From Saliphagus infecundisoli (lineage in GTDB: Archaea > Halobacteriota > Halobacteria > Halobacteriales > Natrialbaceae): a DNA stretch of 64,000 nucleotides. Of this stretch, positions 17,318-18,275 are shown piece by piece. Positions within the stretch are counted from its first letter, which is position 1, and each line of letters opens with the position of its first letter. The DNA lies in NCBI RefSeq assembly GCF_020177375.1, contig NZ_JAIWHV010000006.1, forward strand, positions 62,001 to 126,000, in the 5' to 3' direction. The notes below the pieces were generated by a model. The model saw nothing but the letters and a program-made list of their open reading frames with translations, was not told the origin of the DNA and searched no databases. The translations under genes and the position numbers were made by a program.

Positions 17318-17689
17318 TCAGAACAGCGCGGTCGCGACCAGCCGGGCGAGACCGATCGCCGAAAGCGCACACACCAGGTTCCCGGCCGCCGAGACGAGCG
17401 CGAGGCGTCGCTCGCTCGCTTCCCAGAGCCGGACGGTTTCGACGGAAAACGACGAGAACGTCGTGAACGAGCCACAGACGCCGATCCCGAGGAACTGCAT
17501 CGCCGACTCCCCCGCGCCAGCGAACGCGACGAGCCCGAGGACGAAGCTGCCGGCGACGTTGACCGCGAGCGTCGAGAGCGGGAGTCCGTCGTCGGGATCG
17601 CTCGCCAGGCGGAGATAGACGGCGTGGCGAGCGACGGCGCCGACGGCGCCACCGATCCCGACGAGGTGGGCTGGCCCGAGCCCGATCAC
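17318..17689 (-). CDS. crcB: fluoride channel subunit FluC/CrcB (second copy)
   Basis: 123 residues with four predicted membrane helices. Family motifs: GIGGAVGAVARHAVY in helix 1, NVAGSFVLGL in helix 2, and GVCGSFTTFSSFSVETV, holding the TTFSSF break that forms the fluoride path. FluC proteins are small dual-topology channels that export fluoride. Here two non-identical copies overlap by four bases, so the functional unit is probably a heterodimer with opposite fixed orientations. Located downstream of the riboswitch-like leader. Confidence 0.92.
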   Translation of the reverse strand: MIGLGPAHLVGIGGAVGAVARHAVYLRLASDPDDGLPLSTLAVNVAGSFVLGLVAFAGAGESAMQFLGIGVCGSFTTFSSFSVETVRLWEASERRLALVSAAGNLVCALSAIGLARLVATALF

Positions 17690-18078
17690 GCTCTCGCCCT
17701 CCGATTGCGAACGGCGGCGGCGACGGTTCGGCCGACGAGGACCCCCGCGAAGCCGAGGCCGTAGTTGCCGGTGACGACGGCGGCGACTCCGAGCGGGCGC
17801 GCCGCGAGGGCGGCCTGGAGCGCGAACGTGCTGTAGGTCGTCAGCGACGAGAGTACCCCCGTCGTGAAGACGACGCGAGCGGTTGGATCGACGATCCCCG
17901 TGTACCGGGCCTCGTAGACGAGGAATCCCAGCAGGAAGCTCCCGACGACGTTGACCACGAGGACCGTCACGGTTTCGGGGAGGAAGCCGGCGACCAGAAA
18001 ACGGAGGTTCGCCCCGGCGAACCCGCCGATGGCGACCAGGGCGACCGTCTCGAGTCGGGCGAGAGGGTGACGGGCCAT
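17686..18078 (-). CDS. crcB: fluoride channel subunit FluC/CrcB (first copy)
   Basis: 130 residues, four membrane helices. Motifs: AIGGFAGANLRFLVAG, NVVGSFLLGFLVY and TTGVLSSLTTYSTFALQA, the last with the TTYSTF element of fluoride channels. The stop overlaps the ATG of the second copy. The ATG at 18078 lies 12 bases after the end of a predicted fluoride-riboswitch pseudoknot, giving a direct reason to expect fluoride-responsive expression of the pair. Confidence 0.92.
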   Translation of the reverse strand: MARHPLARLETVALVAIGGFAGANLRFLVAGFLPETVTVLVVNVVGSFLLGFLVYEARYTGIVDPTARVVFTTGVLSSLTTYSTFALQAALAARPLGVAAVVTGNYGLGFAGVLVGRTVAAAVRNRRARA

Positions 18079-18087
18079 CCGAGTGAT

Positions 18088-18136
18088 ACGGGGGCCGTCA
18101 GCCGTTGGCGGTTGCGTCGGGCGGGCCCCATCGCCC
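18088..18136 (-). promoter_or_regulatory. fluoride riboswitch-like leader (crcB motif)
   Basis: Read on the minus strand from 18136 toward the ATG. It opens GGGCGATGGGGCCCGCCC: stem P1 pairs GGGCG (18136-18132) with CGCCC (18123-18119). The P1 loop GGGGCC (18129-18124) can pair with GGCCCC (18096-18091) as the six-base-pair pseudoknot, and a short P3 around CGCCAACGG lies between. The first 18 bases differ from the Thermotoga petrophila fluoride aptamer (recalled from memory) at one position, and the partner base in the pseudoknot changes with it (A-U becomes G-C). CTGA before the 3' pseudoknot arm also matches. Deviations: the bases corresponding to U41 and U48 of the Thermotoga aptamer are C, and P3 is only ~3 bp. 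Position directly before fluC strongly supports the call. Confidence 0.62.
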
Positions 18137-18275
18137 GGTCGTAGCGCCGGCTACTCGCGAACCCACATTGAGCGTTGCGGTTCCGGACGGGCGTCGTGGG
18201 TCGGTTACGGGTCAGTGCACTATCGGCGGCAACACGCTGGTGCGACCGAACGAGAAATCCGTGTAACCGACCCCA

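Follow-up and report, generated by a model that had tools for sequence, protein, structure and literature searches.

A Natrialbaceae-type fluoride-riboswitch aptamer precedes the fluC1-fluC2 genes of Saliphagus infecundisoli

Judged from its sequence and conservation, the minus-strand segment 18136-18090 of the Saliphagus infecundisoli DNA analysed here (the window, a stretch of 64,000 nucleotides) is a genuine, conserved fluoride-riboswitch aptamer, located ahead of fluC1-fluC2 and belonging to a Natrialbaceae subtype with C at position 41. We consider it probable that this aptamer acts in the fluC1-fluC2 leader as a translational ON switch whose AUG partner has moved in this species, and which is possibly weaker for having A40-C48.

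Results

The fluC1-fluC2 locus

The window carries on its minus strand two genes of the CrcB family, fluC1 (17686-18078, 130 aa) and fluC2 (17318-17689, 123 aa), the start of the latter overlapping the stop of the former by 4 nt. Both products matched Pfam CRCB (E 6e-16 for FluC1 and 1e-23 for FluC2); the PDB relatives of FluC1 were Fluc channels, and FluC2 matched TIGR00494 over its cut-off and Fluc in PDB with E 2e-6. With the NCBI fluoride efflux models, FluC2 scored above the curated cut-offs and FluC1 below them. A seryl-tRNA synthetase gene lies downstream of the pair, and a gene for an HTH_10 regulator (18998-18276) ends upstream of the leader, which comprises the interval from 18276 to 18078. 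The aptamer is placed directly upstream of fluC1-fluC2, as expected for an RF01734 member in the leader of a fluoride-resistance gene. Close relatives of fluC1 were present in named records of Halovivax, Halopiger, Natronococcus, Natrialba, Natrinema and others.

Structure of the aptamer in the window

The fluoride riboswitch (crcB) aptamer, positions 1 to 48 in Thermotoga petrophila numbering, was located at 18090-18136 (minus strand) with RF01734, a profile of relatives and the haloarchaeal model R1. Sequence and alignment place the 5′ strand of P1, GGGC, at 18133-18136 and its 3′ strand, GCCC, at 18119-18122, and a fifth pair is possible between C18137 and G18118. The pseudoknot strand GGGGCC (18129-18124) forms six Watson-Crick pairs with GGCCCC (18096-18091; GGUCCC or GACUCC in relatives), with 27 bases between them; the P1 stem and this loop pairing had been described beforehand, and the coordinates agree. 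P3 (GCC-AAC-GGC, 18109-18101), with 3 bp and a 3-nt loop, is the shortest among 75 parsed aptamers (median total length 50). Every pair of P1, the six-pair pseudoknot and P3 is formed, and the core bases A6, U7, G8, U38 and A40, invariant across a 48-row alignment, are present. Two features of RF01734 are missing: position 41 (18097) is C instead of U, and in the linchpin A40-U48 the A is kept and its partner (18090) is C. These two substitutions and the very short P3 had likewise been read correctly in the preliminary description. Eleven bases separate C48 from the fluC1 ATG (18078).

The Rfam model RF01734, whose use had been proposed as a check on the element, matched positions 18135-18098 with 21.3 bits (E 0.0013, 501 nt searched). 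This score is under the gathering cut-off of 34 bits, at which the search returned nothing; in a whole-genome search with the same model the window aptamer ranked first (E 0.0029), the runner-up reaching 12.7 bits. Since position 41 is C, the match extends no further than position 40. The rest of the pseudoknot strand, GGCCCC, lies past the model match and was found by eye, being fully complementary to the loop. A sequence profile built from 47 relatives, with the window sequence left out, detected the aptamer with E 2e-9, the next match in the window having 0.15. Model R1, whose training set included the window sequence, scored it at 61.2 bits. R1 also matched elsewhere in the genome (C66:10817, E 0.003); this match was discarded, its level being the same as that of chance matches in other genomes.

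Conservation in haloarchaea

Relatives of fluC1 were found in 119 of 125 Natrialbaceae genomes. Analysis of 110 fluC1 leaders of this family, with a parser that allowed C or U at position 41 and any base at 48, revealed an intact aptamer in 79: 75 by strict parse and four by eye, namely L048, L051, L055 (5′ half further away) and L056 (one core change). The remaining 31 leaders consisted of 11 that look degraded and 20 without aptamer, and a fluC2 relative lay downstream in 109 of the 110 loci. On a FastTree tree of FluC1, built on few columns and with many forks unresolved, the presence or absence of the aptamer needed 12 changes vs 27 with shuffled labels, and therefore it appears to have been inherited with the gene and lost several times. 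Visibly decaying aptamers before an intact fluC1 were seen in L102, L106, L110, L111, L112 and others, with several independent losses.

Across haloarchaea, RF01734 matched at E ≤ 0.1 in 124 of 392 genomes, 34 of which pass its cut-off. Only five Natrialbaceae genomes pass it, vs about 65 detected with the haloarchaeal model at E ≤ 1e-5, so the RF01734 cut-off misses most of the clade. These low scores are probably explained by C41 and by long inserts in P3, which reach about 100 nt. At two loci of the survey, G297:C2:46753-47236 (L013) and G360:C36:89233-89716 (L011), a pair of RF01734 matches with the same orientation and a spacing of about 415 nt was found, both near fluC genes. One Natrialbaceae genome (G255, locus L014) carries an aptamer of the non-Natrialbaceae type, with U41; this locus gave no fluC match, and the resemblance of its first codons to the L012 fluC breaks off sharply, as would be seen in an interrupted gene.

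Pairing was analysed in a structure alignment of 48 distinct aptamers (32 from Natrialbaceae and 16 from other families) with P3 loops trimmed. P1, pseudoknot and P3 were paired in 99.4% of cells, and the pseudoknot in 99.7%; pairing fell to 33-66% when the partners were slid. Changes on both sides were observed in five pairs (2.5 in shuffled alignments) and 29 cells (7.8 in shuffled), two of these pairs being in the pseudoknot, where the strongest covariation was found: pair 10-45 (G-C/A-U/G-U) and pair 12-43 (C-G/U-A) in T. petrophila numbering, corresponding to alignment columns 10-43 and 12-41. The compensated A-to-G and U-to-C change originally put forward as covariation does exist with respect to T. 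petrophila, at pair 9-46, but this pair is an invariant G-C in the haloarchaeal alignment, and the covariation resides in the two pairs above. The conservation of P1 and pseudoknot in relatives, which had been named as a further check, was thus found. Altogether, the Rfam match, the 79 of 110 leaders, the covariation and the two CrcB-family genes bear out the original proposal of a fluoride riboswitch-like leader before tandem fluC genes in a haloarchaeon.

Core positions 41, 44 and 48

Position 41 was C in all 75 parsed Natrialbaceae aptamers, and U throughout the loci inspected in other haloarchaeal families; outside the class Halobacteria, U41 and U48 were present in 22 of 22 parsed archaeal aptamers of the phylum. 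Being fixed in Natrialbaceae, C41 is therefore a clade trait that cannot count as decay, and the earlier suggestion of a diverged archaeal variant was right for this position, a divergence common to the whole clade. Position 48 was U in 73 of the 75, with C in the window only and A in L068. From this comparison, which included one species of the genus, C48 is a private change of this genome; it may also be a sequencing or assembly error. The other suggestion made beforehand, a loss of sensing, is possible on account of C48 only. Position 44 was also U in 73 of the 75, with C in the window and L068, and in the window C44 makes the pseudoknot fully Watson-Crick again. Among the Natrialbaceae aptamers that look intact, only L068 (G397) lacks U48 besides the window, and it has in addition a broken pseudoknot pair 12-43 (G-G).

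Between the window FluC1 and the relatives with which it was compared, identity was 63-74% and agreement at 4-fold sites 47-66%. Despite this low agreement, the window aptamer has kept nearly all conserved positions, which indicates constraint until recently at least.

Putative promoter

A promoter-like block, CCGCAACGCTCAA, conserved in relatives, was found at 18170-18182 (minus strand), about 35-45 nt upstream of P1. When the leaders of relatives were anchored on P1, TTYGCAAYCCTCAT appeared at about −43 to −30, with CC just before P1; the window counterpart of this block is CGCAACGCTCAAT, offset by about 2 nt. The block is also kept in relatives without aptamer, e.g. L119. From its position and conservation this block is probably the promoter and, lying about 30-43 nt upstream of P1, it suggests that the transcript begins at the aptamer, probably a few nt ahead of P1. 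This predicted block does not indicate a transcription start downstream of 18119, which had been raised as a point that would speak against the aptamer.

Putative expression platform

The motif YAGYY (CAGYY) was found as the last five bases before AUG in 57 of 75 aptamer leaders vs 12 of 31 other leaders, counts to be read with the common descent of Natrialbaceae leaders, which makes them non-independent, and with the presence of some decayed or far-split aptamers among the 31. In most Natrialbaceae relatives this CAGYY beside AUG can pair with the aptamer GGCUG. A duplex between G35-G43 and the start region beat shuffles at p ≤ 0.05 in 31 of the 75 vs three of the 31, and in folding predictions formation of the aptamer made the start region more open in 38 of the 75 and less open in two. 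In other haloarchaeal families, complementarity to the start codon was not enriched (1 of 26, duplex energy vs shuffles); a translational platform is therefore claimed for Natrialbaceae only, and in this clade the modelled pairings make translational ON control probable.

The window leader has no CAGCC before AUG. It contains a candidate alternative hairpin (18068-18100, minus strand, −13.9 kcal/mol) in which UGACGG (18100-18095) would pair with CCGUCA (18073-18068, codons 2-4), with the AUG inside; this duplex had p = 0.037 vs shuffles in one test. Folding predicted no gain in accessibility of the window start, with values of 0.60 without aptamer and 0.52 with aptamer. According to these models, the AUG-enclosing hairpin may replace the CAGYY pairing in this species.

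Discussion

From the anatomy of the leader, a mechanism can be proposed in which the fluC1-fluC2 mRNA, with transcription starting a few bases before P1, would hold in its 5′ leader the Natrialbaceae-subtype aptamer with C41. With no fluoride, the stretch G36-U38-A40-G43 would pair at the start codon and lower translation. With fluoride, the pseudoknotted aptamer would hold this same stretch, so that the AUG would be freed and both overlapping exporter genes would be made. In this species the start-codon partner would have moved into the first codons, and A40-C48 instead of A40-U48 may weaken the switch without necessarily abolishing it.

The most serious alternative to the proposed switch is that the aptamer is genuine by descent and this copy no longer senses fluoride or is on the way to losing that ability, fluC being expressed constitutively. 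Against it, stereochemistry would allow A and C to form a reverse Hoogsteen pair with two hydrogen bonds. We regard such a loss as unlikely, although several observations speak for it: C48 is private to this genome, P3 is the shortest of the 75, CAGYY is absent before AUG, and the aptamer has decayed or is absent in 31 of 110 leaders, with 12 changes on the gene tree. Furthermore, mutants at positions 41 and 48 fail in Bacillus cereus, where U41A gave no response (PMC11077080) and U48A abolished the fluoride-locked state (PMC8752731); no test of C at 41 or 48 was found in these two papers. On the other hand, the window shows no damage at the remaining core positions or in any pair of P1 and the pseudoknot, C44 completes its Watson-Crick pseudoknot, C41 is fixed in relatives and hence is not decay, and decayed relatives (L102, L106, L110) carry many lesions at once.

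That the fluoride switch acts on transcription rather than translation is quite improbable. Bacterial fluoride switches commonly use terminators (PMC2864571, PMC13273304), but a terminator platform was rejected because no U-run is present in the 11-nt spacer after the aptamer, nor in the leaders of relatives inspected, and the AUG is too near for a terminator hairpin plus U-tract. As for a chance pseudoknot unrelated to fluoride riboswitches, the G+C-rich sequence and the Rfam score under the gathering cut-off might suggest it, yet its probability is negligible: it is refuted by the conservation of the aptamer at the orthologous position in 79 of 110 relatives, the covariation and the independent profile match, and the gene downstream is the correct one.

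The original description of the crcB motif gave it a wide distribution among both bacteria and archaea (PMC2864571). In comparison with the RF01734 aptamers of T. petrophila and B. cereus, the window element has in common P1, the six-pair pseudoknot, P3, the core GAUG, AAC and CUGA, and the location before fluC. It differs from them in C41 and C48 in place of U, in the 3-bp P3, in a GA(C/U)C-type insertion before AAC, in a platform that is probably translational instead of a terminator, and in an Rfam score under the cut-off. The other haloarchaeal families (L009-L038) share with it the position before fluC and the secondary structure; unlike the window, they show U41, a GGAGUC/GACUCC pseudoknot, many scores above the Rfam cut-off, and no enrichment of start-codon complementarity. 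As of 2021, the fluoride riboswitch of Thermococcus kodakarensis was described as the one natural riboswitch of archaea with an experimental determination (PMC8241225, citing Speed et al. 2018). As far as the description in that citing paper goes, it resembles the window element in being archaeal, in regulating a fluoride exporter and in its presumed translational control, and belongs to a different archaeal lineage. A literature search combining fluoride riboswitch and haloarchaea, with subscription journals mostly outside its reach, found no dedicated study of natural ones.

In B. cereus, position 41 and the A40-U48 linchpin are considered essential; Natrialbaceae nevertheless fixed C41, and this genome changed position 48 too, in a clade most of whose members the Rfam cut-off was shown to miss. 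A tentative reading, possible rather than probable, is that Natrialbaceae C41 variants sense fluoride with a rebuilt site, and that this species also uses A40-C48 and a start codon inside an alternative hairpin. These natural sequences make the core contacts needed for fluoride sensing directly testable, in a molar-KCl cytoplasm.
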